From Fomitopsis serialis (lineage: Eukaryota > Basidiomycota > Agaricomycetes > Polyporales > Fomitopsidaceae): a stretch of 64,000 nt of DNA. The notes under the pieces are model-generated. The model had not been told where the DNA came from. It saw nothing but the letters and a program-made list of their open reading frames with translations, and made no database searches. Positions within the stretch are counted from its first letter, which is position 1. Each line of letters starts with the position of its first letter. The DNA lies in contig NW_025955078.1 in NCBI RefSeq assembly GCF_022376445.1, positions 1-64,000 of the forward strand, written 5' to 3'. A program made the position numbers and the translations under genes. Shown here piece by piece: positions 12,850 to 38,817 of this stretch.

Positions 12850-14831
12850 TTAGTTTGACCTAGCCGTGTACTTGCCCGTAGTCCTACCAATGTAGTGACT
12901 CTTCTAAACCGTGTGACTTCGCCGCTAAGGGTTCCGAACATTGACGCTTGAGCTTCGAACATCGGGCGGTTCCCTCGAACGGACGGATAGCGCGTCGACC
13001 ATACGGACTTAGTGTACTGTCGTACCGACCGTAATTCGCGTTTTCGGTGGGTAGGTGAGCTAAGGGCTCATCAATGGTCCTCCTGAGTCCCCCAAGCCTT
13101 CCCCGACCCACAGTGTCAGACGCCAGTAGTTCTACGATGATTGCTGGCTGGCTCAAACTCGAGCCTTCCACAACTAACGGAGGTAAGTAGTGTTGACTAT
13201 CATACCCTAACACTGTCACATTGAAGTGACTGAACGTGTAGCAGACCACGGAGAGGAGGAGTGCCGCGAATCTCAAGTCAGCCCTGTATGGGCGACGCAC
13301 TCTTCACAGCGCATACGGGTACAGGCCACCCGGAACGTGCCATATTCAAGTCCAGGTCTTCAGGGCGGACACCCTCACAAACCCATTGGCTGCCCTCGAG
13401 GAGGGATCCAATTTGTGCTGGAAGGCGCTACATCAAGCCGCAGGAAGGCCTCGGGATGGGACACACTGTCCACTCCTGCGCAAGTGGCTACCAGCTCTGT
13501 ATCATCATTCCTCATGCATCTCACCTCCAACCTTCCGCTCGAGCAGGTCCTTGAAACAGCATCGGTGATCCGGCGAACGGCACCTGCCCTTGAGGGTACC
13601 ACATTCCAGCCGGGCGAGTCATTTCCCGTACTAGCAGCTCGATGTGCATTGAGCCTCACCCTCGACGCTGCCGTGTCTTTCTGGACCATGGTGAACTTCA
13701 TACAGCTGGCTTTCCGAGTATCAAGGTGAGTACCATTGATCTGTGTCTGACTCAAGCATAACATCGACATCAGTGAGCTTCGGAGGAACAAGCAACAAAC
13801 CGTGGCCAGAATATGGTGTCACAAGCTCAAAGACATCAAGAAGGGCCCTAAGCCTAAGAAGAGAACATTTCAAGGCTGGTGTTCCAAGGGCGTGAAGTTT
13901 GCTCGTGTTGCCGGCGGAGGTATGTACTGTCTGCGTACTGTTGACTTAAACAACTTACAACTCTGGTGTTAGGTTCAATATACATCTTGGTATTAATTGC
14001 CCTACAAGGCCTGAGAAAGCCCTTTGGGGATTGCGACAGACACTTGGCAGAGGCCGTGGGCAACATGCTCAGATGCCCAGATGGTCAGTCCGTCATCCGA
14101 TACGTCGGCTGATGTTATAGCTAAACCCGGTGTTCAGATTCAGCAACTGGACAGATTATAACCAACATCATTGTCCCCTACATGGTGCAGCTTAGACAGC
14201 AGTGTCCGTTGGCCATAGAAGTAGGTGGGGGTACTCGCACTCAAGACCAGCGAACTTGTGCGCTACTCATAGACCTGGACACCTCTGACAAGGACTTCAA
14301 CTCACTGCGAACAAAGTGAGTCCAAATTCTCTGTATGTAATCTCTCAAACCCTCATCCTTTCTCATGTCACAGCACTTTCCGTCTTCTGCCAAGGTTGAA
14401 GGCGAAATGGCACCCCTGCTACGATCCAGTTGCGGCAACAGAGACAGCGGACATGGTGAATGCACTTGCCGTGCAGGCTGCCTCCCTTGCCAGCCCGTCC
14501 GGGTCAACACTGACAACGTCAGTGCACCAGATTCAGAGCCAGGGCTGAGCGACCGCCAGAGCCAGACGACTCTGCAAGATACCTCTGAGGACATTGTCGA
14601 GACGTCGTATGACACTCAACATCCTCGTAACCTGGTCTTCCCAGCCCCGCGGGGCGATCACGCCCACAATGTTGCTTGGACCAAAACTGTGCGCTGCCAA
14701 GCAACCAACACATCCAAACCTGACGATCTCAGGGAGTTACGCTCGCAGGTACACATTGTGTTGTCTCGTTCTTAGGCAGACGACCTGCTGAAATTGCGGC
14801 TGCGTCTAGTTAGATGCACAATACTCCAAAG

Positions 14832-15352
14832 GCTGTAAGTCTTGTTGAAGTGAAAGAGATTTAGAAGGGCTGTAAAGCCAGTGGAAGTGAAGGACTAGTA
14901 GATGGAGTGAACAGACCTATCCCAGAGGGAAGACTCTGATGCTAGGCAGGCAGAAGAGAGGAGAGATTGTTATCCATTAGGGGGAATCACCCCAGTATAT
15001 ATACATGTCTGGGACTGATCACATGCTACATCAGTAAGCAGATCAGTAATCACTAAGTCCGAGTTTTAGGGAAATGAGTAAGCCTTAACTCCAGAGATAG
15101 GGATATGCATAAGTGTCCATGTGATCAAGGAATGTACTGGAAGGTCATGGAACATGCCGGAAGGGAGTGGAATGATCCAGAATAAGTCTGGAACAGTGTA
15201 GATCGGTCTGGAGCGAGTCACAAGATGAGTCCAGACAGTGTCCGTCAAAAGAATGTATGTAATACTACATCGCAGAACACAAGTCCATATATGTACATAA
15301 CTGATAAGATAAGATAAGATAACACTGGAAAGTCGGAAGTTCAACAAGTCTG
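14832..15352 (+). mobile_element. Probable solo LTR inserted in the TET/JBP-like pseudogene
   Basis: This 521-bp insertion interrupts the older dioxygenase copy between the sequences equivalent to the younger copy's exons near 29582 and 29701. It starts TGTAAGTCTTGTTGAAG and ends CAACAAGTCTGACA, so TG...CA with complementary ends. A TATA-like AGTATATATAC lies at 14992. No clear target duplication was found. A related fragment lies inverted at 1640-1885. Confidence 0.6.
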
Positions 15353-16738
15353 ACACAGCCAGCTACATGCACATGCCATTAGAGTGCGTCGGGTGAGTTC
15401 CAAACTGTACTTTCATATGTTTCACTATGTTGTGGCTAACTCACGTCATTCACAGAGACGTGCTCACAATCAGGGGTGCCAACCACGAGCTAGTTGTCTG
15501 TGTGTGCACCTCAATGCCCGATATTGAGGTGGGACCGTGACACGGGCGCTTGTGGTGACACAGACATGTGACTAGCGAATGGACTGTAACGGACACGGTT
15601 AGTGTACTGCTACCTCAGTCAAGTACCACGAGGTCGAGACTGAGGTAAGCTCATTTGTAGTGTTTTCTCATGGACTCTGAGCACTCATACTGTATTTCAT
15701 AGACTGTGTAACCTTAATAGGTAGAGTAATAACGAGTCGAGTACCACGAGGTCGAGACTGAGACTGTGTAACCTTAACACCCGAGCACATCAAGAACACA
15801 CTTACAGAGAACCTGGTGGCCAGTTTCATGAGCAACCCCTTGAAGACGGTGGACACAGGTACTTCTAGCCATGAAAATGAGATGGTACATTTCGAGGCCA
15901 TTCACTTTTCATGGTACAACCAAAGTTGTATGAGGGTAAGTCGTTTTATCCTTTCGCCGCATTGCACTACAACCTAATTTTCTAACATCTGACCAGGGCA
16001 ATGACGTGCTGTTGGACATACCGCTGCGACAGCTCAGCTGGGAAGGGTGCTCAAGAACAAACTATTCTCAGATGACACCATACGTATCTGCTGACATGGA
16101 GGATCATATACCAATCTACCAGGCTATGACCTTTACTCTAGCGGATATGTTCTCATGGGTCGAAGAGAAGGTAAGTCTGTGTCACACTGAGTGTCGGCAA
16201 CTACAGCTGACACATGACAATGATACTGCAACAGCTTCAAAGCATCCTGCCCCGCAAATACGACCATCTTGAAGCCACCGCCAGCCTACTCCCTGATCTT
16301 CACCACTCCCTAGTCCACCCCTTTGTTGGCTTAGTTGTCAATATGAATGTCTGCATGTACACTCACAGGGACAGCAAGGATGACATTATCTGCCTAGTCA
16401 TTGTATTAGAGGATTTTGAAGGCGGCAAGCTCTGCCTGGTAGAACCACTGGTCTAGTTCTTCCTCTGCAACACAGTCATTTGGTTATCTTCCCGTTGTGT
16501 GGCATTACTCATTTCAACCTACATTACAAAGGCAGAAGGGCATCAATTGTCTTGTATACAGACAGAGAGCTAGGGTCTTGGACACAAGGCAATCGTAACG
16601 GTTGGGCATCCAATACCAATTTCATGTAGGTAGGATACCGTCAGGAAACAATATATACCGGCTGCGTTGGACACCTTTCACCATTTACCATCTAGTCTAA
16701 GTCTACCGTCTACTGACTACTGCACCATCAGGAAAAAC

Positions 16739-17841
16739 GGATCTGTCTTGGGCGGCATTACAAGAGATATCAGTCACGTGAAAGGCCTTCAAGACGTCGT
16801 GCTGACTTGAGAGGCGTTTAAGACAAGTAAAAGACCTCAAAGACGTGGAAGCCATCAATTCCATCATGTCTGACTTGAGGCGCAGTTACTTGTAGTACAA
16901 TTACCTTTGACTAATGACCAATACACTTATACGCCCTCACTTTTGCATTTTCACTCCTCACAAGTCTGATTCAATAAAGAATACTACGGTACAATACCAT
17001 CATCTGTAGTGAGGCTCCTGCAACTGTATCTAGTCACACATAGCTCGTGGCCACTCACTCTGTGGATGAGTGCCTGGTGGTTGGCATGACGAGTGATTGC
17101 TCATCCATGCCGAGTCCACAGGTCCACCATGACGGCCATCTAACTTGGTCCATTGCCAACTTGATGTGGGTGCGCAGACGAGTGATTGTTTGCGTGGGTG
17201 AGCCGGTCGCTACTAGCCGGCCGAGCAGGGGGAGGGCGCACACAAGAGTGCAGGCGAGAGAACGTAGCCGAGCACGCGGGTGAGCGGGTGAGCGGGTGAG
17301 ACAACGGGCAAGCTAGAAGGTGGGACAGCAAAGATGGCGCACGGAGAGACAACGGGTCAGCCGGCCCATGACTCTGCACGCGCGTCGACGTCCCTGTGTC
17401 CAGACATACTTGAGCTGGACAATGGTCAGTGCACCTCCGCCCATCGTCTAGCCTTCACTCACCTCGAGAATGCGGCTCTCGATTTCTCTGTCTGCCCGCC
17501 GTCTACTCCCCTCTCAGTCGCACCCAATCCTATCCCATTCACCACTGCTGCCTGAACGTGGGATGTCCGGCACCGTGGGCGTAGGTGAGCACCGCTACGG
17601 TCATGTCAATGCCGCCACGTACCGATCCCAGCCAATGCTGATGTACAACACACAGCCCCGCATCCCGGCGGAGACGATCTCTGCGGCGCACGGTGAGTCG
17701 GACAATGCAAGTACATACCGTGATGCAGCGCGCATGCTTCTTTCCACTGCAGACCGATCAGGATTGACAACAGGAGGATGACAGCCCATGCTGACCCGTC
17801 GATGCGCCACTGCACGGGCACTAATGACGTCGACAGGATGA
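16739..17841. other. Left subterminal region and GC-rich spacer
   Basis: 16739-16930 carries repeated CAAGAC, ACTTGAG and ACAAGTAAAAGAC motifs typical of subterminal transposase-binding arrays. From 17200 to 17330 there are GCGGGTGAG repeats. No gene is recognised. Confidence 0.5.
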
Positions 17842-19520
17842 TCAGGCCCTCTTGAGGATCTTCGGGATGTCCTCGAAGAAGATCGACCGCTCGACCTCCT
17901 TCTTCGCACCCCATGAGATGTTGTGTGAGAACAGGTGGGCGATAATCGCCTGGCTGACGGGGATCGACAGACCGCCAAAGAAGAAGCTGCACAATACGTC
18001 AGTCCTCAGCCACGACACAATCGCTATGGACTTACAAGTATGGAATCCACATAACATTGATGAGGAAAGACTTGATCAGTGGTTCTCACCCAGAGGTACT
18101 GGAGTAGAGTGTAGCCGCCGGAGCCTATGAAGACTACCGTCGTCGCCAGCCAAATCTCGAACGGAGTGCATGTAGTAGCCGTCAACGGGAAGCTCGAAGC
18201 CGAGGCAGATGTAGTTGATGACACTGATCGTGATCGAACACGCGATACCGTAGTACGAGAACATGTACGACATCATCGAGAACTTGTAGTGCAGCGGCGC
18301 GACCAGAGGAACGAGTGGATCTCCCTCGCGATTGGGCCCTGGCGCCACACCACCGAGCTATGGGGTTGAATGGCAGTTCGTTACAGCCGTACGCGTACTT
18401 CTGCCACCGGTTCAGCTCGTCATCGCACGTCAAAGACACACCTTCCTTGAAGCCACCGAGGGAGTATGTATCGAATGATAAAACGCGCTCCTGGAGCTGC
18501 ATCGCCATGTCGAAGTCCTCCGACACATTGCTCTCGGACCGGATCTTGTCCTGGCAGCACGGTCAATGAACACGGCGTCCTGGACGGCCCTCCAGTGGAG
18601 GAACACGTTGTGCCCGACGAACGGCGCGACCTCGCCGTTCGCGCACGCGTACGAGATACATTTGTTGATACGCCGGTGAAGTACGCGAAGCAGTGATGCG
18701 CGACCTGCATGATGTCCGACTCGTGCTGGATGACACCGACATCGGGCGCTCCGCATCTCGCGCGCCGCGTCCCGGAAACAGTCCTCTGGCACGATGGTGT
18801 CCGAGTTGACGATCAGGATGATCTCGCCAACACGGCACGCACGTCCCCACGTCCGTTAGCAGCCCAGGGGCGGAACTTGCGGCCGCTCGACTCGTACACC
18901 TCGTTGATGGCAATCTGCAGCACGTGCTCCCTTCCGAGTTCACCTTCTCGTCGTCCTCGCCGCCGAAGCCGACGACGCTGGCGTTACTGCCGACCCGGTG
19001 CTGGTACTGCATGCCGTAACGCTGCTCTGCCTCATGACCGAGTGAGTCGCTCTTCTGGGGGCCGCGCTCGTCTCCACAATGAGTGAGAGCCTCAAACCGT
19101 AGTTCATGTTCGAGGCTTTCTTGAACCGACCCGCACGCTGGAACCCGTCCGGCGCATCATCAAGCTTCGGCCGCGCGACCCAGCCAATGCCATGGTTGGC
19201 GTAGAATGCTATGCGTGTGTCACGCTCCTCGACCGAGAGCAACTGTCACGCAGGCATCAGCGACCCGCACAGCAAGCGTACGTCGGAACTCACCCTGAGA
19301 CCATCGTCGTTGACGAGTATCATGGACGCATCACCTTGCCGGGCATACGTCTGCATCGCGGTCAACAATCGCACAGCTCATAAGCCCGAATGGGAACTCA
19401 CAAGACAGTTTCCAGAGACTCCTTGTACACCGGCATCTCAATCGGCAGGCCGTTCTCCACGATCTTGTTCGGCCAGGGCTTGATGGCGGAATAGTACCTT
19501 GAGTGTTCGTGGTACTGCGC
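17842..19520 (-). pseudogene. Family-2 glycosyltransferase, N-terminally truncated pseudogene
   Basis: Read on the minus strand from 19520, fragments in shifting frames match a fungal membrane glycosyltransferase of the GT2 (chitin/cellulose-synthase-like) type. In order: YHEHSRYYSAIKPWPNK, DDGLR, VEERDTRIAFYANHGIGW, RFKKASNMNYGLRLS, VNSDTIVPEDCF (DxD-like), SEDFDMAMQLQ, GGFKEGVSLTCDDELNRWQK, then hydrophobic segments (PLHYKFSMMSYMFSYYGI onward) and an end in EDIPKILKRA with stop at 17842-17844. Possible introns remain near 19400 and 19250. Frameshifts are numerous and the N-terminus is missing. It looks like a host gene piece captured by the 17.7-kb element. The GT2 family call is fairly sure; the exact orthologue is not. 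Confidence 0.65.
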
Positions 19521-20700
19521 AATGGGACCGTGGGTACCAGGGACGCCGGTGTGCCCGGTGCTAGTGGAAGTATAAGTATGTGGACGGCGCGCGACCGAGC
19601 CGAAGGGCGACCGAGAGTGCGAGTGAGAGGGCGAGAGAGACAGACGGCGAGTGAGATGACGGCGAGACAGAGGGCAGACGGGCGAGAGGGACGTCAGGCA
19701 AGGACGGCAGAGTCAGAGCGAGGGCGCAAGCGAGCGGGCAGACCGATGAGGGTGTGTGGGCATGAAGGAGAGGGCATACGAATAGATTGGTTACTCAACG
19801 TTGCCTACACTCTACCTAGGCTGCGCTCCCCGCCTGCGACTTTTCGACTTCCCTGCAGTGGGACGTGCTGGCCGCCCACTGTCCCCTTTGCCCTCCGCCT
19901 TGCCTGCCCTCTGCTTCGCTTTCTCTTTCCGGGCGTCGCTCACCCGCCCACCGTCCTCCTTGTCCTTCTTGCACCGCTTGCTGGTACGAGGGACAGGGTC
20001 GTCTGCCGGAGCGGCGCGTTTTGCGACGGTAGGCTGTAAGGTGTTAGAAGATGGTCCTTTGCGAATACTCAGTACTCACCGTGACCGTGCTCGAACTGGA
20101 CACCCCGTTACTACGCGCCTCATCGTCTTCGCTGTCCGACGGCACCTCAATGACGACGCGACATGCGGCACGTCACTGGACGGGGGGAGGAGGGAAGTGT
20201 GAAAAATCCATCGTGTTCTTGTATCCGCAATATACTAGACCGTCTTCTTCGAGCTTGGTGCTATGCACCTTGCTCTTATTGACGTCGGCGCGGAAGAAGC
20301 CGACGTACTGAACGTCGTCGTCAGCAGGCTGGGGGTGAGCCCCAGGCATATCTAGTGTAAGTCATGTAGAAAGCCCAGAAGCATAGAAGAAAATGGTGAC
20401 GCACCGGTGTCAGAGGTTCACGTCGATGTGTGCAGGAGACAGAGGATGCGGCACTCCTCCGGTCGAGTTGAGCGTTCAGATCTAGATCTCGATCTCGATC
20501 TCGATCGCATGCATGACCTCACCTGTCACTGTCAGTGGGCCGTCAGTCAACTTTTACCACCCGTCCGTCTTCTTGTGCCCACGCATCGTTGTACAACCAC
20601 ACTAGTTCGGGCTCGCGCCGCGTATGTATTATTTCCAAGTAGTTCGTTCAATAAACTACGTTGCTGTGCCGCCTTGTATTTCCTTTCCACAGAAACCGTA
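19521..20700. other. GC-rich spacer, no gene recognised
   Basis: 19590-19720 is a GCGAG/GAGAGG-rich tract like those in the 8047-11505 element. A short GATCTC repeat lies at 20480-20510. No protein family was recognised on either strand. Confidence 0.4.
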
Positions 20701-23700
20701 TCACCATATAGTCTGGTAAGCATACTTACTAGACCAGTTGTTCAATACGAATTTTGAGGCGCAGTCAAGAACCGTGTCTGATTTCCAGTCATCAGGAACT
20801 GAACGCTCGAGGGAATCCAATGACGATGGGCCGGGGAAGCGGGGAATTAACTGGCACGATTGGCGAATGGAACTCAAGGGTACGACGTCTCCTTGTGGTT
20901 TGCCGTTGGATGGCAGAGGAAGCTTGTTCACGTCGTACATCATGTGTACTGGGTTCGCCGTTGAACCCAGCTTCCCGTACCACTCCACGTAGGCTAAAGG
21001 CCCCTCCTGGGCCCACTCCTCCGGTGCTTCCATATCCAGGTTTGTGGTAGGATCGCGTATGGTTTTGGGAAGCTGAAAAATAACTCTCAGTCTTCCGACG
21101 CGAGTCCCTGTATTGTACAACTGTTAGTTAGGGTTCTACGGCGGTCAGAATACTAGTGAGTCCTACCTTGTAACCCTGTGGCTTCAGCCTCGTCGCCGCG
21201 CAATACGACAACGGTATCGAATCTTGCTGGCTTGTCTGCTGAAGAAGGCCTGGCCTTGACGCCATCCTTCTCTTCGGCGTTGTCGTTGAGTGGAATGTTG
21301 TTGAACTTGAAACCGTGAAAGACTTCCACTCGGCCGAATGGTAGGTGACGGTTCGCCCGGTCCTGCTCTCTAGGGCGGAGTCTGCGCTGTAGTTTCATAG
21401 TATAGACGTACTGCGAGACGGCGTCGGTGAAGCCCGGTGCCGCGTGTCGTTCCTCGATGGAAGGTAAGGATTGTCGAGCGAACGACGGATGTTTGGCTAA
21501 TTTGATGCGTGTTTTGCTGCTGCGAGGGAGGTGCGTACTGCGCTCGTCGTCTTCAGAGTTTGCTGTGCCAGTCGTACTCTCCGAGGCAGACACTGCTTGT
21601 GGGTCTGCAGACTGGTCCGTAAGTCTGCCGCGTAGGGTATCGTACATAGAAACCTTCTCCCTCCTGTCGAGCCACTTGATCATCTGCGGGCGAGCATTGC
21701 GGTGGTTCGAGGCTCTCCACGCCTTCTTCGCACAATCAATGTGCAACCGCTCAAACATCTCGGTGTTGAAGTTGTCGGTCGTGCCGAGCCTGCGGATAGA
21801 ATCGACGTAGTGTAGAAGGGAATGGACTTTCGGTATGTTCAGGTGCTCCCGAATGCCGAGTTCCTCCAGTATATGCTTGTTGTCGTGGAACATTTTGAGG
21901 GCGTCTTCCATGTATCCGAGGGTAGACTCGTCGTGAGTGGGGTACTGGGAAAGGTATATGAAATCGAGCAGCGAACGGAAGGTGAGCATTGCAGCCCTGG
22001 GTATACGGCCAACGAGGCATCCGAGGAGAATGCGTGCGATGTCCTTCCGCTCGCTACCGGAAACCTGAGAGAGGGTGGATATCCCGGTCTTGAAATGACG
22101 GGTGCCGTACGCCGGAGGGAGGCAGCGAATGCGACGGTCGAGTTCCTTCTCTCCGATGAGTTCGGTGGACCACTCCACTATATGCTTGAATACGCCTTGA
22201 TAGAGCTGGTGAAGGATGTCAGGCGTGATGCAGGAGTGGATGTCGGTGTACGGTAGGTCCCTCCAGAAAGGTTTGATGCAGTAACCGGAGACGTTGAACT
22301 GCTTGCAAGACTTGGAGAAGGCTGTGGAGCCTCTCTCGCCTTGCTGACGAGCTTTCCGTAGCACGTCCAGGGTCCAGAGCTGGGCGCGAGGCGTCTTCGC
22401 AGACGCGTCCCCAAGGCCGCTCTCCGGGCACTGGCAGATGGGGCAAGTCCCGTACTTGGTACAACTGACCAAGCACTGCTCCGGGTAGTCCGCGACGTAA
22501 GACGCCAGGATCGGATGAACCCTGCGCACGTTTCCGTCGCCACCCGTCACGTCAATTCCCTCCTTGCCTGCGTCGACAAGAGGCTGGAGGATGGTGCGCA
22601 CCGAAGCGTGGAAGAGCTGTTGGACCAACGCTCTCCGCTTGTTCTCGGTGATGCCGGCGGAGTCGACCTTATCCACGGAAAGGTACCCGATGAGTATGCA
22701 GGCGTGTTCGGAAGGCTTACGACGAAGCTCCTTGGGGATGTTGCCCAGGGTCATGTAAACAGGGTAGGCGGATTTGTTTCCAGAGAACTGCGTGAGTTGT
22801 GTCTTGTCAGTCGAGATAATGACTGGCGCAACCGCAGCGCCTGCCGGTAAGATACTCTAGAATCTTCTTCAGCACCCCGTAAGATTTATGTGTTGGTAGT
22901 GCTTACCTGGATCGCGTGCCACCATTGACCGGTCCACATCTCCGTGTAAATCCGGTTAGTGCGTGCAGAGTTTGAGAAGATACGACTGGGTCAATACACG
23001 ATGTGATTCGCGTGAGCCGGGTTTCCTAACAAAGCCTTGATCGCCTCTATGATGTCACGGTATTGCACCAAATGTCGTTCGCCCGGACGATCCTTGAAGG
23101 TCAGCCAGCATTCCTTCCAGGACACCCTCTCTGGGATGGAGTCGACCTTCTGAAGCAAGGCTCGGTTGTTGTGATATGTGAGTCCGAGCCTCTCTTGCAC
23201 CTGTGATGTAATTCAGTTCATCTAACCAACCCGATGGAACTGCACTTACTTCTGGTATTCGAAGAAAGCGGTCTACCGCGCCCTGCCCGATCCCTTCCTT
23301 GACGAACCACTTCGCGATCTGCCAGTCCATCTCGGACTCGAATGGGGCCCACACTGCATTGACCCGTGCTAGTACGTCTTCATCACCTAATATTGATTTG
23401 TCAGGTTAGCACTGTGCACAGTGCAGGATAAGTTGATCCTCACTGCGTCTCTGCCCGCCCAAGCTATCAAAATGCTCTCTCCACGACTCTCTAATTGTTT
23501 CCGCAGTCCCTATGACCTTTCCTGCACTCCTATCGATATCCTCCACCCTGTCGTCATCATCATCATCAAGCGAAAGGGCGGTACGTTGAGCGGGCGAGGG
23601 TGCTGATGATGTCGACGCTACGGGCTGGCTGGGATCATGTACCGGAATGAACTGGTACTGTGTGTCACGTTCATCCTCTTCCTCCCACTCTGCACTACTA

Positions 23701-24029
23701 TCCGCGTCGCCGTCACCCGTAACAAGGTTGCCGTCAACATATACGCTGTACGTATCGTCAGAAATGATAATTCGTCTCACCCAGAAGTACGGAATATCTC
23801 ACCTGTTCGCCGCGTCGCCATCCTCACTGGCAGCATCAGCCTCCTCGTCTGAGGAGTCCGATGTGTCCGTCTCCTGAAGATACGCCCTCAACTTTCCCTT
23901 TTTGTACCAGGCGCACTCTCGGCTTGTAGATTGATGAGCCATGAGCCCTTGCACGGTGTCGAACGAACCGCCGCATGCATCGCATGTCTCCGCCAGCAAG
24001 GCATACAAGTGTCTTGATCGCTTTACCAT
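20701..24029 (-). CDS. Plavaka-type DDE transposase (one in-frame stop)
   Basis: Six exons fit on the minus strand: 24029-23803, 23745-23444, 23386-23250, 23200-22907, 22856-21167 and 21107-20701, together 1019 codons, near the family's usual 1000. The N-terminus has a C2H2-like finger (CDACGGSFDTVQGLMAH), then acidic linkers, WAPFESEMDWQIAKWF, EMWTGQWWHAIQ, STDKTQLTQFSGNK, a CPICQC knuckle, ITPDILHQLYQGVFKHIVEW, TTDNFNTEMFERLHIDCAKK and a C-terminal VVPLSSIRQSCQLIPRF. All are hallmarks of basidiomycete Plavaka transposases (CMC/CACTA-related). It would catalyse cut-and-paste transposition in the nucleus. A single TGA at 22993-22991, probably from CGA, interrupts exon 4; otherwise the gene is intact. 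It diverges from gene A. Confidence 0.88.
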
Positions 24030-24891
24030 GTCTTATGAGTCTTTCAGTACGTCATTTTTTGCCAGACATGCTTCAAAAACTCACCGACCGACACTGAAGC
24101 CACAGTAAAATTCTTCAGAGTCAATGTCTCTCAGGAAGGTACTCAGAGGTTGCAGCAGGACACGACGCTCAGTTGCCACCGACCCTGCGCACCGTTACGT
24201 TACGTTTCCACGGGTACTTCCCTGCCTTGGCGGCAAGTCCGCACTGACAGCGCGAGATTGATGGCTCCCGCGGATCTGGCTGTCCGGCGCGCTTCTCACG
24301 AGACTCATGCACTCTGCGCCCAAAGTACGTACCCTTACTGGTGCTCGCTCCTTGTACCTCCCAGGTAAGTTGTTCTGTTGGTCAGTCTGCTCAATTACGG
24401 ATAACATCTGTTTGATACAGGAATTGCCGTGCTACGTTGCGTGGAACTGCTGGTGCATCGTCAACTGGCGGTCCTGGTAGTATTGGCGCAGGTGAGTGCA
24501 CTTACATACCTGTTCCCGTTCTGCCTACCACCGCGTTCGCTTTTCCTTGGGGACAGCCAGAGCCAGAGGACTTCCTTATCGAGGCGCGCGGCCTGGCCGC
24601 GCGCCCCGATAAGGAAACTGGGACTTAACGCACGGAGCCAACCCCGGCAACGATAATGCAACAGTCCAGCGCGGGCTCCGCCGCCCACGGTACACAGTAT
24701 AGGCGGTGAATATACTGCGTACTGGCCAGGGTATTCCTGTGAGTTCTCCAGCAGCCAGAGTGTGCGTCGGACACTGTAACTGCCGTCCCGACCGTCCCGC
24801 CCAACTCCGGTCACTTGACGCATGAGCTTAACACTATACCTGCTTCCCTTCCCATGTACTATCCCCCGTGCTGCCTCGCGATTCCTTCCTC
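24030..24891. promoter_or_regulatory. Divergent intergenic region between transposase and gene A
   Basis: These 862 bases must hold the promoters of both divergent genes. A short spliced frame (about 24261-24628, with GTAAGT...CAG and GTGAGT...CAG introns, ending PDKETGT) could be a small gene, but nothing supports expression. A strong hairpin lies at 24572-24616. Confidence 0.35.
24572..24616. repeat. 45-bp GC-rich palindrome
   Basis: Left arm 24572-24593 and right arm 24595-24616 are complementary at 21 of 22 positions around a single T; the mismatch is A at 24582. The core is GGCGCGCGGCC. Position between two divergent genes suggests a regulatory or structural role, but this is inference. 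Confidence 0.85.
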
Positions 24892-27182
24892 ATGCCTCCC
24901 CCTCACTCTCCTAGCTTCCAGCCTCTAGGCACGTTCAGCGACCTCACCATCAACGACTGGTCCCCCTTGCCGGACAGTCCCCCCTTCAAGGACAAGCTCT
25001 CATCTGGCCTGTCCCGGACGAAGCCCACCTGGGACTTCAGGAACTTAGGTAAGTGTCGAAGTTGGCTTATCTTGTTGTACACGATAATGACCTCCTCTAG
25101 CCCCGCCGTCCTCTCCCCCCACCAGTATTGACGAGGAGGACGACATCGACACTGTGCGGCACTGGCCCTTCGCTAGACGTATCTTCGGCGACCTCTTGGA
25201 CGACAGGTATTTCCCTGCGTTGTCTGACGTTCTAATAGAGGTAAGTGTTACCGTAGGCACTTCCGAGTCTCCACCCTAGACTTAGCTCATGCTTTTTAGA
25301 CTCCTAATTTCGAGCCGGAAGATTGGGCACTTCTCCAGGCCAATCTGCAAGACAGGCCTCTCATTTTGCGTCATTTCTGGTATGTCCAAAATTTGCTAAC
25401 CTTCGTATCACTCTCACTAAAGACCTGATAACCCAGGTTCCGTTACGATCGAGCGATGAAGCGTGTAATATCCGGTTCGGCCAGCAGCCTGCATCAACAC
25501 GTCGCCACGGGTTGCGCGCAAAACATCGCGCAACAGACCATCATGCCTGTCACCCAGAAGTTTCCCGTGGATGGCATGATGGTGACGCAGAACGGCGCGA
25601 AGATGCTGGTCCAAAAGGACCACATATTGGTACCGGACTGCCTCATAGGGCTGACCGACCGTGTCAAGAACAACGTACTCAGTCTCAATCTAGACGCTGA
25701 CTGCGTTCTAGTTGAGTCTGCAAGAACGGAGAGTGTTCCTCACGTTCTTGCGAAGGTGAGCACCGTCTTCAATGGATGACTAATACAATATTAACGTTCT
25801 CCCTCAGGTTACCGACTGCATGCCGGTGGACGCTACACCAGTTAGAACGGGGGTGGGACGTACGTACGTCGATGAAATGGCATCGGAGGCAGGATCGGAC
25901 GAGTCGGAGGATGCGATGGAGGATGAGACGCAGACGCAGACCGAGGACGAGGACGAGACGCAGACGCAGACCGAGGACGACGACGGTATGCAGACTCTGG
26001 CAGGACAGGAGAATGAGCACACCGTATCTTCTCCCCTTACCCCTCTCCAGGACCCGTCGTCTCCTCTGTCGCCTCTCTCCCCCGGCTCAATGCCCTCTTC
26101 GACTCCCCCTCGTCTTCCTCCGCCTCTGGCGCCTCTGCCCCTGCAACCCGCCCAGGAAATCTCATCCATGGTTTTCATGGTGGTCTCCACGAAGGAGAAG
26201 GCCGTCAAGGAGCCACCGCCCGACGTGGACATCAGCAAGAAGGAATGGGTGGAGTTACCTTGCCCGGACGACAAATGCCTCACCGGGGGACATGCCTACG
26301 GTGGCAAGATTTACGTAGGGGAGATACGGGCTTACATGTGGGTGTTCCAAGGAGCCGAGGACCACGCCTACCTCGCAGAGCACTGGAAAGACGACCTTGA
26401 AGCCTGGGTGAGGAGCGGCAAGGCTCTGGTACGTACGGTTTGTGTTTCCAAGAACGACTGTGCTAACTTGACATTAGCTACTGCACCGGAAGTACGCAAC
26501 TCCTGCGCAGAAGGCAGCCCTGCTGCTGTGGGAAGCACGGTGGCGGGAGTGCATGCTAACGGTGCGCGAAAAGGTTCTCCACGCCCTCATCATAGCGAAG
26601 TCCGTCCAGTCCTCGCCGGAGGAACTCGAGGAGTTCCAGAAGCTGTTCAATCCGGAGCCCGACATGACACTGCCACGCATCAAGAGCCCGGTGGGAGCGG
26701 TGCGAAAGCTTGTCAACACCGGCAGCTGGCGCTTGGCAGAGGAAAGGTATGAGAAGCAGAACCAGGCCACCACTTCGTACCATTTTGACGGCATCATCGG
26801 CTCTGTGAAGGAGGCCTTCGTAGTCGGGGCCAACCTCAAGCGGGCCCTCGACGAAGGCAATTTGGAAGCAGCCCAACGGGCTCTCAAACGGCGTCACCTC
26901 GACCACGCTATCGTTGCGAAGAAGAGCTCCTTGAGCGACTCGGAGTACTTAGCGGACGGCTCGAGCGACCCGATAGCCAGCGACCCCCTCCACGATCCTA
27001 CGTTCCGTCCTGAGGCAGACGACGGCTCGTACTCGCAGGACAGCAACTACGGCGACTCGGAGTCGTCGCAGCGGGGCGACTCATCGCAGAGTACCAGCTC
27101 GTCGCAGGACGCCTCCGACTCGTCGCGGGAAGAATCCGACTCGCAGGATGAATCCGACTCGTCACAGGGCTCGTCCTTGTAG
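24892..27182 (+). CDS. Gene A: cargo protein of unknown function
   Basis: Six exons splice cleanly: 24892-25048, 25101-25240, 25300-25379, 25437-25755, 25808-26428 and 26478-27182, giving 673 residues without a stop. I recognise no domain. Visible features are a proline-rich start, a conserved WFRYDRAMKR...SLHQH block (also in gene A'), an acidic repeat of EDETQTQTEDED units (about 25917-25985), a proline/serine-rich linker, a conserved CPDDKCLTGGHAYGGKIYVG block, a charged helical C-terminal third and a Ser/Asp-rich tail (27040-27180). No signal peptide or membrane segment is evident. The start is the first ATG in frame (24892); an upstream ATG at 24854 is out of frame. It lies 410 bases before the TET/JBP-like gene, and this order is duplicated in the older set, so the two probably move and act together. 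Confidence 0.72.
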
Positions 27183-27332
27183 GACAGTAACCCACAGCAG
27201 GCGACTCGTCGCTGAACGGAGGTCCACTGCCAGTCGCAGGACGGGCTCGGAGGAGCGCGGAGTGTTCCTACATTCGCGTTCGCCCATAGTCTACCTTAAA
27301 CTGTCGTTAACGCTATCCCCACGGTACTGTAG

Positions 27333-27418
27333 TTACTCGTCGCTCACACTACTCTGCTACTCGTCGCTCATGCTACTCGTCGCTCACGCTACTCACGCTA
27401 CTCGTCTACTCGTCGCTA
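27333..27418 (+). repeat. Short tandem repeat CTACTCGTCGCTCA
   Basis: Four to five imperfect 14-15-base units lie in the likely 3' untranslated region of gene A. Nothing else is seen between 27183 and 27591. Confidence 0.7.
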
Positions 27419-27591
27419 TCCTCTGTCCTGTGTACTTATAACTGTTCAGCGTCCACGTACGTATCATAAAGGCAATACACGCAGATCCGCCGTATTGCAC
27501 ACCGCGGGAATTCCTCTGGCCGCCCAAATTAGGCAAGTCTGAGTAGTGAGGAGTTAGCGGTTGCGCCATGCTGCACTCCTGCCAGTTGTTC

Positions 27592-30500
27592 ATGCAGATC
27601 ACTCCAGAAGAACGAAGAGATCTAGAGGAGCTGTTATTACGCACCCCTAGACTCAATGAAAATCTCACGTCTCTGCTACGACGACTTCAAGACCAGCGAC
27701 CCTCCCACCAGCCTGCTGAACACCCAGCTGACTGTCAGGAAAGACGGTCAAGTCTTGACAGGCTGCCTGATGTTGCGCGTGAGTTTCATGCCCGCTCTAT
27801 CGTTCTCACTGAATAATAGAGTTTTACAGTGACTCAGGAGAACACGTCACAGGACACTGGCGGCGCCAAGCTTGCTCAGGCCCAGACTCGCTGCCAAAAT
27901 CTAGACAGGTCGGAAGGTACGTACAGTTATTGCTCGCTAGACACAGTTCAATGATTATTCAAGTTGTAGGGGATCAAGTTCTTTCTAACGGGACTGTTTG
28001 TGGCCCTCAGCGGCACACACGATCCTCTCGTCGTGCCCGCGAGGAAGCTCACCCGTACGCCCCTCAGCTCGAGGCAAACACTGTCGTAGCAAACCGGCTT
28101 GAAAAGCCTGAGGGTCACGAACGTGCTCGAAGACTGCTACGTCAGCGACCGCAGCATCGCCTCCCACCTTGCCCCCGAGGCGGTATCCAGTTCGTCCCCA
28201 TCAATTCTGCGATGGATGCCAATAACACTGCGACGGAGTCCGAGGAAGCGCAGACACAGCAGTGGGAAAACAGCTCTGAACCGGCTCTTACCACAGGGGC
28301 TGCCGTGCATAAGTACACGTCCCTCCTCACGTCAGATCTCAGCCACAGGAGGCTCCTTGACGTGTGCAGAGCGTACAGGCAAGTGTGACGGAGCTGCAGG
28401 GGGCGCCGGTTCGCCAGGACGAATCTCTGTGCTCTCTGGTAGCCAGATGCGCCTGCAGCCTGAAGCTGGATGCTGCCGCCAGCTTCTGGCTGATGATCAG
28501 TCACATAAGGCTCGCCTTTAGAGTGGCAAGGTACGTAGCTTTTCCTGCTAATATCTCCTAGTGCTAAATGGCGCGTGGCATGACTAGCATACTTGAATTA
28601 GATGACGGGAAATCTGACGACGGCAAGCTCACCGTGGCGGGAATTTGGCGGAGAGAATTTGAAGGCGTTGAGGGTGCCCCAGAGAAGAGGACATTTCAGG
28701 ACTGGAACACTACCGGCGTGAAGTTCGCGCGACTCGCCGGAGGAGGTACGTCTAGCGTGCATGTTCCCAAAATATATACTGATCTCAAAATTCACGTCCA
28801 GGCTCTATCTATCTTCTGGTGCTAGTAGCAGCCCAGAATCTCTGAGTACCTCTGGCTACCGCCAACGCACACATAGCACAAGACTTCGGTAATCTCCTGA
28901 GGTGGCCGGACGGTAGGCTGATTTTCTTATTGATATCTAACTGTTCTAAGCCGACTCAGATTCAAGAACGGACGGCTCGTCAAAGATGTCATAATCCCCG
29001 CAGTAGCTCGTCTGCGAGAACTGTGCCCGATTCGTCTTGACTGTATCCTGCCGGCAGCTCCCCAACATGGAGTGTCAAGATTGCATTTTCCGCCTGATCT
29101 GTGCGGCCATCTTGACGCGTCTGACAGCGTATTTGAATCCTGGAAATTGAAGTGAGTGTTGAGTTCGATATTGCCCCCACGTTATGGCACACTAATCGTT
29201 TATAGCTCCTTTTCTCTGGTGCCACGAAACAGAGACGTCTGGATATCGTGCTACGATGAGTGCGACACCAGCAACGCATTCACAAATGCTTTGATCAACG
29301 AACTAGGGCCGTTATCACCTCTGACGCCGATTGACTCTCCCGTCCCTCCAGAGTTCGACTTACCAGATGATGTCGTCATTTCCTCCCCGCTCAGGTCATC
29401 CCCTGTCCCGCCACACGAGGAAGTAGTGATTCGCCTCCAGTACGACGAGCAGCAGGAGGATAACCAGCGCTATCCGGGACCACGCGGTGACAGAGACAAG
29501 AACATTGTCTGGACCGAGCAAGCCCGTCAACATGCGTCCAACTCCGCTAGGCCTGCAACCCTGGAGGGTCTCCAGAGTGAGGTACGAGGCGAATAACTTC
29601 TCAATTGTGAAGTTAAACTTTACCTTTACAGCTTGACGGTTTGTACTCTGAAGGAAAGCGAATCAGGGACGACTCGTACGTGCGAGTACCCCTAGAACTT
29701 GTAAGGTCAGTAGTACTCGTATTGTCGTATCTACCTCCGACCATGCTGCAATTACTCACGACATATGACACACAGAGACGTGCTGACATTCAGAGGCGCA
29801 ACAACAGTCTCGTAGCGTCGGTCTGCACCTCGATGTCGGAAGCTATGGCAGCCGATCTGACGGAGCGGCTGGTCGTGTGCTTCGATACCGATCCTTTGAA
29901 TGACGTGGACACTGTGACGCAAACACAGCACGAGTTCCAAGCCATTCATTTCTCGTGGTACAACCGCCACGCCACGAAGGTCTGGAATACTCGTGATGTG
30001 TTTGACCTTGACCTCAACTGACATTGCCGTCTGTACAGGGTCATGACGCGCCTTCAGACGTACCGCCACAAATGATGAGCAAGTCAGGACGGTCGAGGAC
30101 CAACTACCGTCAAATGATACCGTATCCGTCCAAGGATATGGCGGTCCATGAGCCCATCTATCAGGCAATGGAGCGTATCCTCGGCGACGTGTTCAGCTGG
30201 ATGGACACCAAGGTAAGCTCAATTTCAGTACAGTACGATACTATTATTGTGAATGTGCTAATATTGTCTGAGTAGGTCAGACGATCCTTCCAGGTGTATA
30301 CCGTCATCTCGAGGCAACGGCCAGCATCCTCCCTAACCACCAGCAGTCGCTGGTCAACCCGTTTGTGGGTTTGGTCATCAACATCAACGTCGCAACCTAC
30401 GCCCACAGAGACAGCAAGGATGACACTGTCTGTGTCGTCCTTGCTGTTGGTAATTTCGAGGGCGGCAGTTGTGCCTGCACGAAGCAGGCCTCGTCATACC

Positions 30501-30665
30501 GCTGCGTCACGGCCATTTTATTATTTTTCCTTCGTGCAAACTCACGCACTTCAATCTACATTACAAGGGACGCGGGCCTCAATCGTGCTACATACGGACA
30601 AGGAGATGTTACGTTGGGCAGAGAGCGATAGGAACGGCTGGGCCTCCAATACTTATTTCCACTAA
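27592..30665 (+). pseudogene. TET/JBP-like 2OG-Fe(II) dioxygenase, younger copy, damaged
   Basis: About eleven exons run from MQITPEERRDLEEL (27592) to a stop at 30663-30665. The C-terminal core has the double-stranded beta-helix signature of the TET/JBP family: YAHRDSKDD (His 30404-30406, Asp 30410-30412, iron ligands), NFEGG, LVIPLRHGHFIIFPSC, THFNLHYKG (distal His 30547-30549) and RASIVLHTDKE. The family oxidises methylated or modified DNA bases in the nucleus with 2-oxoglutarate and oxygen. Damage: single-base shifts near 28380, 30470 and 30577, and a TGA at 28842-28844 where the older copy has CGA-type Arg. Apparent shifts near 28970 and 29800 can be avoided by alternative donors. A shorter rescue of the 28380 shift would need a 38-base intron. 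The copy is probably dead or recently dying; an assembly error cannot be excluded. Confidence 0.72.
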
Positions 30666-30941
30666 TCTAACACTAATGACTTGGAGTGGCTAAACGACGT
30701 GTACGGTCCCTAGAATCTGATGCATTCTGTTCAGTTAAAGACATGCTGGTCTTGTGGTGATTGATTCGAGTAGGCGTCCGACGTTTTATTCCCGTGACCT
30801 TCGTGCGGAACGCGGAATAGCTTTCCGCAACTCAGCGCCAGTTTGTTCCGCGCCGTGTCGTGACTTCACGACTTTCACTTTCCCTACTACCTCTATTCTC
30901 TGTGCTGGCTACCTCTCTGATCTCCGACTAGGGCTGGCACC

Positions 30942-33897
30942 ATGTCTCCACGCACTCGCTCCACCGCTAAGAAGCTCACCGCTCAGCCGAGCACGAAGGC
31001 GTCGGGATCTCGAGCTCGAAAGAGCAACAAGTCAGCCAAGCAGCAAGAATCCAGCAAGGCGTCGGGTGGCGAGGCACCTCTGTCTGCCAAGGAGCAGAAG
31101 CAACTCCAGGCGCTGCTCAAGAGACAGTCCGTTCAGAAGCAGGACAAGGAAGAGGAACGTCAGGCTGGTGAGTACGGTCCGCACAGCTCTCAAAAACATC
31201 ACCTGAACACATCCTTATTCCGACTCAGGGGTGCGCAAGAGGGCGGCGACTATGACTCGCGAGGAAGTTCAAGGATCAGACGCTGAAGGTGAGGAGCCGT
31301 CCCGTAAGAAAGCAAGACACACTACGGATTCCGATGGCGAGGGCGGTGGCGACGCGGGTTCCGATGGCGAGGGCGGGGGCGATGAAGGAAGCGAGCCAGA
31401 CGGTGGTAGCGAGCGGGACATACGAATGGAGAGCCCTTCTCCCCCTGCTCGGTGTACGTGCAAATTCATTAGTTCAGACGGTCCGACACTGACATATCAA
31501 TCGAGCTAAACCGAAGCCAGCTTACGGGCGGTACAAGAAGGCCGAGCAGGACTCAGGGAAGGGAAACACATCGTTGACTGAGGCGGAGCAGCGTATCGCA
31601 CAGACTCTCGGCGGTACGTTACATTGTAAACTACAGGTTCAGATCACGGCTAATGTCTTTTTGTATGCTTTAGCGAAGGGCAAGGCTAAAGACAAGCCTC
31701 CGTCCAAGAAGTCGGTGGTAGTCGAGAGCCCGCGGGAGGTTTCTGAAGAGGAACATGCGTCCGTTCGCTCGGGATCGGAAGAGGAGGATAGGACGAGGCG
31801 AGGGGAGATGGACAAGCAGAGCGAGAAGAGGAAGGATGTGCGTGGCGGGAAGAAGGCCTACGTGGAGATCAGGGTAGACAAGGTGAGTATCATATGTTCT
31901 GCGAACTTGACAGCCTGACATGTTCGTCAGTCCCCGTCACAGAAAAAGAAGGCAGCAAAGAGCAAGACGGTCGTCTCCAGTTCGGACGAAGACCAAGACG
32001 ACGATAAGGTCGATGAGCTCGAATCTTCGGACGATGACAGGAGCTCCGGGATCCGGATGAAGGGCGCGGGCGGTGACGACTCGGACGCCCAGATCATGCG
32101 TCCACTCAGACGATGTCATGGTAAGTGTTGCTTGCATTTGATGTGGTGCGGTACTACTAATACAGTACGTAGGAGATTGCTCAGAAGGGAGCGAAGAAGA
32201 AGCCCAGAGGCAAGGGCTCAGTAGCGGTTCGTGTGCGCGTCAGGTCCTCAGACCTGCCCATCTATGTCCGTCCCATTGTCGCCGCTGCTCAGAGCTTCCT
32301 CCGCCTTCGTCTCGCACTCGAGACGGCATGGACCAGCTACAAAGCCGCGCCCAGTTCCCGGCTGCAGGACAACATGGGCCTCGTTGTCCTCGCCCTGAAG
32401 GACGCTCGTGATATGCGTGACAAGGACGGTAAAAGGGTGAAGACTATGAGGACCGCATACACCGATCTGAAGGAAGCGAAGGGAAAGGAGGGAGACGTTA
32501 CGAGGAGAAACGTACACACAGTGGTAAGTGATGGACATTGGTGTGAACATTATGACTTGCCTTCATTCTCAGCAGATCTGGAACGTGGCGGCTCAGTTCC
32601 GGAACGAGGTAAAGAAGAAAGGCAAGAGCGTGGTAGAACACTCGTACGGGCTGAGCAACCTGACGGTCACGCAACGCGTATTGCTCGCCCAGTGGCTCCT
32701 CAAAACTCACCCGATGAAGGTCAAGGGCGGCAAGCGCGAGATCCCGAACTTCGTGTTCGGTGACATGAAGATTGCCTGGAACGCCAAGGATAAACTGGAC
32801 AAGGAGGTACGTACTGTCTGGCTAGACGTGTTTGCGGCGCGTTGTTGCGTCAAGACACTGCTAATCTTGACGGCTAGAAATGCTCTGTCAAGTCAGAGCT
32901 TCTGTTCAGGCATCCGGCGATCTCTGAGATCATCGTGCAGCAGTGGTTCCCGGGTCAAGGTGCCAGCATGGCCGTTGACCGCTTCAGCGAGGTCCCAGAT
33001 AACCTCATTGCGTTGGTCTGCAACTCGGTGAGTCTTGGACGTATCGCAGGTCTTCTCAATATTGAAATCTTGCTTCAGATCGAAGCAGCGTTGAGCGAGA
33101 TAGCGTTCGGGAACCCCGTCGCGTTCACGAACAAGCATTTCGTACCAAAGTAAGTAGTTCTCCGCACCTCTACGCAACGTTGACTGTTGAATTTTCACTA
33201 GGTGGGACGATCTCATGTCCATCCTCGAAGCTACGAAGAGAAATGCGCCCGACTACTACGCTGACATGAAGAAGCAGTTGTGGAGTCGCGTCAGGTAAGT
33301 GCGCATTCGAGACCTAAGCTACATACTGAATTAACTCTGGCAGCGCCCGAATTGAGGGCGATGATCAGGAAGATTCCGACCAGGACGACGGTGAGGACTT
33401 CGTGAAGTGGAACAAGCTTCAGGATATGGTGCTCGACGCACCCACCGCCCAGTCATCGTCTAACGCAGGCCGGGTGTCCTCGAGTACCGCCGCCAAGCCC
33501 TGTCTAGTGGCAAGCCTACATCGTCCGGTACTACGAAGCCCTCCTCTAGCGGCAAACCGTCGTCGTCGAAAGGGAGAACTAATGAGGCACAGTGTAAGCA
33601 GACAGGAACATTGTAGTACGGCAATCACTGACCTGAATCGGTGGTACAGCGCGTACGGATGCCGACGCTCCAGCGTCGTCCTCGAGCAAGAGGGCCCGCA
33701 CGATGAGGAAGAAGTCGATGCAGACGAACTTGAACGTGAGGGTATGTACACACCTGGTTGCTCTCGCGGCCCCTACAGCTGACGCGGCCCAGGTGACGAA
33801 CCTGTTCCGGAACCCGATGCCGCCGACACCTGATCGCCTCTGCTCGCCGTCTTCGCTGTCTCTACTCCAAGGGTATGAGAGCCATTTTCACTGCTGA
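30942..33897 (+). CDS. DUF6532-like protein, cargo of the 17.7-kb element
   Basis: The gene starts MSPRTRSTAKKL at 30942, with a TATA-poor, C-rich leader, and has about twelve short exons. The N-terminal half is lysine/serine-rich and acidic (SDGEGGGD repeats near 31330-31390, SSDEDQDDDK near 31980), probably disordered and nuclear. The folded part begins RSSDLPIYVRPIVAAAQSF (about 32247) and continues through LLFRHPAISEIIVQQWFPG, EVPDNLIALVCNS, FTNKHFVPKWDDLM and DYYADMKKQLW to about 33295, matching the basidiomycete DUF6532 pattern. The C-terminus is SSSGKPSSSKG-type low complexity. It needs a non-obvious acceptor near 32191 and has a likely one-base shift near 33480; the exact end is uncertain. 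Function is unknown. An older partial copy lies at 36386-36970. Confidence 0.65.
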
Positions 33898-34453
33898 AGT
33901 ACACGTCTGAAGGCATTTTAGATCACTCATTACTACCACCATACCCACATCCTAGTCCTTGGAGGTAAGAATGACCTATTTTTGTTGTTGCATTCACTCG
34001 TTCTCGTCGCTGTACCGTCTGTACTTGTACCACTATACGTTGTTCTGGAGCCTGTTGTGTTCTGCTGTATGTAGATTGTCTGTTGTTGTACCAACTGTAG
34101 GAGCGTGCACGAATACGATTTTATTGCAGTCCCCGCATGGATGAAAAAATTAAGGATTGCTTGAACAAATTATGTACTTGGTGGAGAGCCACACAGTAAA
34201 GGATACTTGAACACAAGTAAATAAGACATTTGTGCATGGAGCTTGAGAGACTTGGTAAAGACATTCAAGCCGGTTCCATGGGGCACCTGGGCAGCGGGTC
34301 AGACATACTTTTAGTCTCTCACACAAGTAATAAAAGGCATTGGTAGAGCTTGTATACCTCGTACAAGTAAACCAAGAATTTGACTTGTCTTTGTACCTCT
34401 GTTGCCTTTGTATGTCTTGAAAGTCTCACAAGTTATATTTGTTTTTCCTGATG
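33898..34453. other. Right subterminal region of the 17.7-kb element
   Basis: 34150-34440 is packed with ACAAGTAA, CTTGAA and AAGAC motifs on both strands, leading into the terminal repeat at 34441-34453. The array resembles the left end at 16739-16930 and is the expected type of transposase-binding region. Confidence 0.6.
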
Positions 34454-36385
34454 ACGCTGCGTGACGTGCTCATCCCTTCGCTCTACCCATCTACCTGTCT
34501 ACTGTCTTACCATCTACCATCTACCGTCTACCATCTACCGTCTACTGACTACTGCCCACTGCACAACATGCCTGACCCTTTGCTAGTCGTTCTTAATGGT
34601 CACGCGGCAGGTGACCATCGGGCACACGGTCAGCGCTAGAGCACCTACGGAGCTCAACCGGTACCACCGCCACCCCTCGACCGCGACCATTTTGTGTCCC
34701 TCTCGCTCGCCTTTCCCAAACTTTGGTAATTTCTCCTTCAGTTACCTCCTTCATGCTCTCTACTACTCTGGCCACATTGCAAGCACTTTTTGCGACTATA
34801 GCGACTACAAAAGCCATTGCAAGGACAACACTCAGGAAGCTCAGCCCTCGGTCCTGACCTAGACACACGACTGTGCTGCCTCCCAATCGCTCGACTGGCC
34901 AATACTTAGGTAAGCTGTTCTTCTCCTGTGTTCTAACCTATCATCTGTCTAGTCAAATGCTTTGTGGACACACATTTGAAGGACCTGTGGGGATATACCC
35001 AAACCCCTCAGCTGCAGCATCCCCGCATATCCACAGTCTCACCATGTAAGTCTTTCAGCTGAGCACAAACTGTCTCTACCATGACTCGTGTTCTGTCAGC
35101 TTGCACACCGTTGTGGGCCTAATACAGACAGGCAGTGTAGCACTATAAGCCAAGCTTGAAGTCTTCTGTCGCCCAGAGGGTTGTAAGTCGTCCATTTGTA
35201 TGTGCCTGCTCAGAGAGGTGTGCGTCGTCGCTGGTTCCACGCTGATGCGCGCTCTGTCCTCAGCAACGGCTATGTTCAATCAAGCATCCATATTCCCTCC
35301 GCATGCCTAAAGATGTTCCACCCGACGCTCGCCAGTCCTGCATCGCTTCCCCTGGGGTCTCGCTATTCCACTCTTGAACTCCCCCTTACTCAGCTTCAGG
35401 CTCGCACCCCGGTTCGTCTCGCTGTGCGTGTGTACGCGTCTTAGGCTGCCCTTCGTGCATCATTGCCACGGCTGCTAAAAAACCTTTTGGCCGGCTGACT
35501 TCAACCAGGTTTACGTGCAAAAATGTCTCGCTACAGCCACCCTGCATGCACCGTCCTGCTCTCTGAGTCTCCTGCCCGGCACGTCCGTCCTCTTCTGGCT
35601 TATGTGCTAGTGTTCTTGCTTGATTGTGTGGTCTCGCTCCCTCTCGTGTCTTGCCATGACCCGTGTGTTCATCAGCTAACTCGAGCTCCCCGGTACTCAG
35701 CTGCAAGCTCGCGAGCGGGGTTGTGTCACTGTGCGCCCGTCCAGGACCTTCCACCACCAAAGCTCCCCGGGGTATCACAGTCTGCTACGTCTACAAGAGC
35801 CCTGGTTGGCTTGCTGACCTCCACCATGTTCACCTGCGAAGGCTTGACTTCGTGATTGCTGTACTGCATGCAGTGCACGAGCACTGCTCCGTAGGGTCAT
35901 TAGGTGGGTTAAGCCAAGTCGAGTTGGGATGTCGATGTATATAACTTTGTACCCAGAACACCAATGTCTATATGTATAGATGTTCGCCAAGCGGTGTCTC
36001 GCACCGCATCCCAGGTGCGTCCACTGTTGGTGTGAGCACGTCAGGCCATACCGTGGTGGTGACTGGCTGAACACGCGCGCGGAGAGGCGATGGGTACGGG
36101 GTTCGCGAACGGTGCCCGTAATCATTCATTATGCCGGGTACCATACATACACCTAATACGACTCTACCTTTCCGCACTCATGTCTTCTAAGACATGTGCA
36201 ACTTTACTTTTACGTCTTGAAAGCCTGATGTCCTGCGTGGTGGGAAATTGAAGCCTACGTTATCAACAATCACTGTGGGAATATCTGCGGTCCCTGTCTC
36301 GCAACTTGAACACTCCCTTTGCTGCTACTACGACCTCTCTTGACCGTTCCACAACACCTACTACTACAATGACCCACCTCCTACC
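34454..36385. other. Spacer between the element end and the truncated DUF6532-like copy
   Basis: 34487-34555 is a CTACCATCTACCGT simple repeat that also occurs left of the element at 16690-16722, consistent with one locus split by the insertion. Two CT-rich stretches near 35380-35460 and 35690-35760 resemble each other. No gene recognised. Confidence 0.45.
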
Positions 36386-38778: not shown

Positions 38779-38817
38779 ACTCGTCCACAGGTCAAAATTG
38801 TGACCTGTGGACGAGTC
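38779..38817. repeat. Hairpin, inverted copy of 4000-4037
   Basis: Same 16-base complementary arms as at 4000-4037, here with loop AAAATT, inside the inverted block 36971-39550. Confidence 0.85.

Follow-up and report, generated by a model that had tools for sequence, protein, structure and literature searches.

A PlavakaB-Type Transposon of Fomitopsis serialis Carrying a TET/JBP-Like Gene and a DUF6532 Gene

1. The Element and Its Termini

The DNA analyzed here, referred to as the window, is a stretch of 64,000 nucleotides from Fomitopsis serialis (Polyporales). Positions 16726 to 34453 are occupied by a cut-and-paste DNA transposon of the PlavakaB type, which contains a Plavaka transposase on the minus strand and three genes on the plus strand, namely, gene A, a TET/JBP-like gene, and a DUF6532 gene (Table 1). 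The element is bounded by perfect 13-bp inverted repeats, CATCAGGAAAAAC, and the dinucleotide AC abuts both ends on the outside as a 2-bp target-site duplication. The termini read CATCA..TGATG, and the duplication is of the 2 or 3 bp typical of PlavakaB. The assignment to PlavakaB, as derived from termini, duplication, transposase domain, and motifs, is a sequence-based one.

Table 1: Features of the transposon and its borders in the window.
Feature	Position	Strand	Remarks
Left target-site duplication AC	16724..16725	.	
Left 13-bp terminal inverted repeat	16726..16738	+	92+87 genomic copies, control 0
Left subterminal zone	16726..17325	.	7 CAAGT/ACTTG motifs
Glycosyltransferase family 2 fragment, captured, frame-broken	18344..19245	-	PF13632
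Plavaka transposase, main exon, 567 aa	21156..22856	-	PF18759, E 1.5e-89
Upstream transposase exons (introns predicted)	23058..24032	-	Homologous pieces in C29, C72, C124, C23, C146, C76, C129, C62
Gene A, core	25432..27179	+	Annotated protein B0H18DRAFT_958844, 732 aa, starts further upstream
TET/JBP-like gene (N-terminal limit and introns predicted)	27592..30665	+	Catalytic exon ~30272-30665, frameshifted in the window copy
DUF6532 gene (limits predicted)	30942..33779	+	PF20149 matches within 32528-33150
Right subterminal zone	33854..34453	.	9 CAAGT/ACTTG motifs
Right 13-bp terminal inverted repeat	34441..34453	-	
Right target-site duplication AC	34454..34455	.	

In the 66-Mb genome (806 contigs), the 13-mer occurs 92 times in forward and 87 times in reverse orientation, compared with 0+0 for the reversed control. 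Pairing of ends was based on 100 of these 179 places; among them, adjacent copies lying 4-25 kb apart form 14 convergent (+-), seven ++, three --, and three divergent pairs. Identical 2-bp flanks are present in six of ten end-bounded intervals (nine plus that of the window), for which chance would be 1/16 each (P ~1e-5), and identical 3-bp flanks in none of the ten. The motif CAAGT/ACTTG is clustered in either terminal 600 bp of the window element, compared with 1.09 motifs per 600 bp in its interior; in the other nine intervals it is found 1-8 times per end, and the enrichment is less clear. The inverted ends, the AC duplication, and the subterminal repeats given in a preliminary description of this DNA were thus confirmed. 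The genome search proposed there for paired ends has been carried out, and the finding that would have spoken against a transposon, a lack of other copies with such ends, did not materialize.

When the joined flanks (225+245 bp) were searched in the genome as a candidate empty site, no match across the junction was found; the left half of the query aligns with remnants of TET genes on C457 and C334. The element starts 87 bp beyond the end of the similarity to C457.

2. Genes and Passenger Sequences

The main exon of the transposase scores 300.9 bits with PF18759 against a cut-off of 26.3. It contains CPIC and HSLLH, read by eye as the two PlavakaB motifs ahead of the last catalytic acidic residue, C(2)C for the former and H(3-4)H for the latter. 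Over the stretch searched, gene A matches the annotated F. serialis protein of Table 1 with 100% identity, and it has no Pfam family above its cut-off; a protein search returned three matches, which are the window's own protein, another one of F. serialis, and one in Amylocystis lapponica. By sequence, gene A is recognizable in close copies only. By profile it is found on C23, weakly on C29, and in a remnant in the left flank of the element, with no match in C72, C124, C146, and C62. From this patchy distribution, the constant part of the cargo would be TET-DUF6532, with gene A either evolving fast or being replaced. The DUF6532 gene is recognized by PF20149 above its cut-off in two pieces on the plus strand.

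For the TET pieces at 29617-30662(+), there are 171 matching places in the genome. In the catalytic exon of the window copy the frame changes twice, and a third break at its start was read by eye against C223, so that this copy cannot make an intact TET enzyme of its own and would depend on other genomic copies. The TET gene of C223 changes frame upstream of the catalytic exon. Catalytic exons are open over the aligned stretch in C223, C23, C29, C146, C158, and C72 and broken in C124 and C62. The near-intact transposase and the three plus-strand genes of the preliminary description are indeed all inside the element; the TET gene, however, is frameshifted. Two components had escaped that description, a glycosyltransferase fragment within the element and, directly to its left, older remains of these genes (gene A-like at 5904-7577, TET at 14587-16623).

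A piece of the glycosyltransferase fragment recurs at about 1.9 kb from Plavaka, with the same spacing as in the window, in C64, C466, and C300, and no match was found on C223, C667, and C484; it is thus probable that one subfamily acquired host DNA once it had separated from the C223 group. The first 61 residues of the fragment are 93% identical to places with open frames at C379 and C51, which are the likely host source. A part for this gene in a base-modification pathway was considered and rejected, since it is a PF13632 family fragment with broken frames.

The equal spacing also bears on whether the two ends might belong to different elements and enclose a chance or nested composite. Nests do occur locally, the left flank being itself such a remnant, and four of the ten intervals are without matching 2-bp flanks. 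With AC on both sides, an internal order as in other copies, the constant position of the glycosyltransferase fragment, and motif clusters at both ends, a composite is nevertheless very improbable.

3. Gene Order in Other Copies

All 14 convergent pairs among the 100 places listed contain DUF6532. Plavaka is present in 12 of them (the exceptions are C158 and C169) and TET in ten, being absent from C76, C129, C169, and C219 (for C169 and C219, among the matches listed). The three genes occur together in nine pairs (C22, C23, C29, C62, C63, C72, C124, C146, and C223), with the order Plavaka(-)/TET(+)/DUF6532(+) in C22, C29, C72, C124, C23, C146, C62, and C223 and the reverse in C63. Thus, the co-occurrence that had been expected between such ends holds for the transposase, TET, and DUF6532, and Plavaka may be regarded as the vehicle; the fixed trio of the preliminary description has to be reduced, as gene A is variable.

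Linkage was also counted over 77 of 83 Plavaka matches (second pieces of the same copy were left out), 86 listed catalytic exons out of the 171 TET matches, and one DUF6532 match per place. Among the TET matches listed, a TET exon lies on the divergent side of Plavaka, oriented as expected and 3-16 kb away, for 35 of the 77 Plavaka matches, the distance being 7.0-8.6 kb in 27 of these 35; every other placement within 16 kb of Plavaka accounts for 11 TETs, and for 42 of the 77 no TET was found in place. DUF6532 follows downstream on the same strand in 57 of the 86 TET matches and in 22 of the 35 Plavaka-TET arrangements.

Several copies deviate in composition. A 9.2-kb interval with the same ends and a TC duplication (L058, C158:28248-37472) contains TET and DUF6532 with no transposase found and is possibly a non-autonomous form. 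The near-identical, terminal-repeat-bounded Plavaka copies on C76 and C129 (L051-L054) contain DUF6532 with no TET found. In C124 and C62 (L044-L046 and L055-L057), the right flank is the same, the left flank is different, and identity shifts sharply along the element, as would result from recombination or from an assembly join.

4. The Plavaka-Linked TET/JBP-Like Protein

The Tet_JBP profile gives no match to the broken catalytic exon of the window; it matches the catalytic exons of six of six other copies at E<=0.01. Two Tet_JBP matches have 29.2 and 33.5 bits, both under the Pfam cut-off of 34.9 (member 1 is below the curated cut-off), and most Plavaka-linked matches are likewise below it, those on C23 and C156 being above. 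HxD, the distal His, and the following Arg are retained in all six aligned catalytic exons of other copies; in the window copy they do not fall within one open frame, with HRD present. As HRD is found in all six exons and in the window, in place of the HxE of the PE type, the protein is not of the type reported by Kojima for Plavaka.

Nor is it close to the AG type, since CcTet is missed at E<=1 by both Plavaka TET profiles; a KDZ-linked TET from this genome (C264, the one tested) does match CcTet, at 2e-21. One of the profiles reaches PKHD-type hydroxylases at E 0.56-0.8, with the unrelated PINK1 at a similar value. When a Plavaka TET profile was compared with six genomic Tet_JBP domains, the majority of them KDZ-linked, the match had a probability of 95.5 over 98 columns, which shows at the profile level that the Plavaka-linked and KDZ-linked proteins belong to one superfamily. 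A KDZ match lies within 10 kb for 24 of the 36 Tet_JBP matches above cut-off. From the HxD motif and the missed CcTet, unlike in the KDZ-linked protein, the Plavaka TET may be a separate type, set apart from both the AG and the PE types. No relatives with gene context were found in the viral contigs scanned.

Another reading of these matches is a TET/JBP-superfamily 2OG-Fe(II) oxygenase which would no longer act on DNA bases. The two sub-threshold scores, the low scores of most Plavaka-linked matches, and the PKHD-type hits in combination with the missed CcTet would fit such an enzyme. The profile match to the genomic Tet_JBP domains, the E<=0.01 matches of all six exons, and the above-threshold scores of C23 and C156 argue against it, and we regard it as distinctly unlikely.

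TET-carrying Plavaka elements are already published in outline. As far as the consulted part of Kojima (2025; PMC12730594) goes, TET-positive PlavakaB occurs in Agaricus bisporus and Gymnopus confluens (Agaricales) with a PE-type TET (HxE), and in Polyporales TET-positive Kyakuja only; according to the same source, Iyer et al. (2014) implied an association of Plavaka with TET/JBP, Fomitopsis pinicola included, and among the fungi of that study A. bisporus alone then yielded TET-positive Plavaka families. The F. serialis elements share with those of A. bisporus and G. confluens, as described there, the Plavaka transposase, the termini CATCA..TGATG, duplications of 2 or 3 bp, and an internal TET/JBP gene. 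They differ in the HxD enzyme, the linked DUF6532 gene, and, in one subfamily, the captured glycosyltransferase fragment. With TET-positive Kyakuja (KDZ), whose TET is of the AG type, as in Coprinopsis CcTET, they have in common the linkage of a TET/JBP gene to a DNA transposon; the transposase is another one, and the Plavaka TET profiles miss CcTet. No published description of TET-DUF6532 linkage was found in the literature searched; DUF6532 is mentioned there in work on Ganoderma. Measured against these portions of the literature, the HxD enzyme and the gene set look new.

It is conceivable, if on balance doubtful, that PlavakaB of Polyporales took up a TET of an HxD type, neither AG nor PE, that is undescribed in Agaricomycetes, independently of Kyakuja, and has long carried it with DUF6532 as a single module against silencing, whose accessory protein would steer the oxidase to the subterminal repeats.

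5. Codivergence and Selection

Elements with a transposase more similar to that of the window copy also have the more similar TET (Spearman 0.67, 35 elements), and the distance matrices of the two are correlated over seven elements (Mantel r 0.65; 62 of 5040 permutations), which are not seven independent points, as C62 and C124 are near relatives. Between the window and C223, dN/dS is 0.03-0.18 for seven TET pieces, 0.07 and 0.32 for gene A, and 0.39, 0.49, and 0.13 for the DUF6532 gene. Among distant copies, 12 of 15 pairs of the catalytic exon are saturated and the remaining three give 0.05-0.13; middle-exon pairs give 0.02-0.58 (13 of 28 computable, 47-48 codons), and the transposase 0.07-0.08 in two of three pairs, with high dS. 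Values for DUF6532b among distant copies contain intron sequence and were left out. By these substitution-based measures, the TET-DUF6532 set, with gene A, is shown to codiverge with the transposase and to be under purifying selection, so that the TET protein likely does something the element needs.

6. Methylation and the Possible Role of the Enzyme

One DNA methylase exon was found in the host genome. The observed/expected ratio of CpG is 0.88-1.07 in end-bounded TET-positive intervals, compared with values down to 0.06 in repeats of the window; it is also 1.03 and 1.07 in the TET-less copies on C76 and C129 and near 1 in TET-free DNA at 46-50 kb. Recent changes were followed in a few pairs of Plavaka stretches, the TET-positive ones less than 1.4% apart, positions adjoining gaps being excluded. 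Between the TET-less C76 and C129, eight of nine differences are CpG transitions (CpG versus other, 8 versus 1). For TET-positive DNA, the first 7.3 kb of C124 and C62 show four CpG versus one other transition and one transversion, and the right ends show 8 versus 3 (C124/C158) and 8 versus 2 (C62/C158) CpG versus other transitions with three transversions each, the latter two comparisons not being independent. Since C124 and C62 each carry a broken TET gene, these spectra test protection poorly. KDZ-linked TET loci of more than 99% identity are mixed in CpG versus other transitions (1/9, 1/6, 2/5, 4/6, 6/6, 4/2, and 4/1). In this small sample, the pattern suggests 5-methylcytosine on Plavaka copies with and without TET, deamination being the presumed cause. 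CpG content was dropped as proof of protection, because the TET-less copies are also normal and recent TET-positive stretches change mainly at CpG. Accordingly, the proposal of the preliminary description that the TET protein counters silencing by host methylation gained no support from the window, where the gene is broken, nor from CpG ratios and recent CpG transitions, which in the few TET-positive pairs gave no sign of protection.

The explanation we consider probable is nonetheless a PlavakaB transposon with a selected TET-DUF6532 set, plus gene A, whose TET enzyme would oxidize 5-methylcytosine on the element against silencing while an accessory factor acts on the repeats. The transposase would cleave at the 13-bp terminal repeats, oxidation of element DNA by the TET/JBP enzyme would counter silencing, and DUF6532, gene A, or both would act on the subterminal repeats of the CAAGT type as an accessory factor, in the manner of TnpA in En/Spm. 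The plant En/Spm (CACTA) system with TnpD and TnpA has a transposase of a related group, short ends, subterminal repeats, and an accessory protein, and it has no TET. DUF6532 and gene A would be comparable to TnpA by role only.

A real TET-carrying Plavaka element could also employ its enzyme in a role other than anti-silencing, for instance, in marking its own DNA after replication, in timing excision, or in acting genome-wide. In favor of such a role are the invisibility of CpG protection, the second, KDZ-linked TET population of the same genome, which could act in trans, and oxidized methylcytosine on retrotransposons in other mushrooms, as cited in the consulted part of Kojima (2025; PMC12730594). 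Nothing direct opposes it; anti-silencing is, however, the simplest role for a selected TET in a mobile element, and we rate the alternative roles as unlikely, though to be taken seriously. A single genome would harbor two different types of TET-armed transposon population, Plavaka and KDZ, so that anti-silencing by transposon-borne TET becomes testable by a comparison of TET-positive with TET-less copies that share their ends. The DUF6532 gene, present in all 14 paired-end intervals examined, gains a setting where its function could be sought.

Outside the element, the window contains CpG-depleted repeats at 2001-6000, 38001-46000, and 52001-58000 (observed/expected 0.06-0.42 in 2-kb windows); no such depletion is seen in the 2-kb windows between 46 and 50 kb. 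DDE_3 transposase matches lie at 633-1418 and 48207-49855, the pieces of the latter being below the curated cut-off. Among the CpG-depleted repeats there are young inverted copy pairs, 40357-46434 versus 52680-58762 with 99.28% identity and 3268-5846 versus 36970-39550 with 99.77%.
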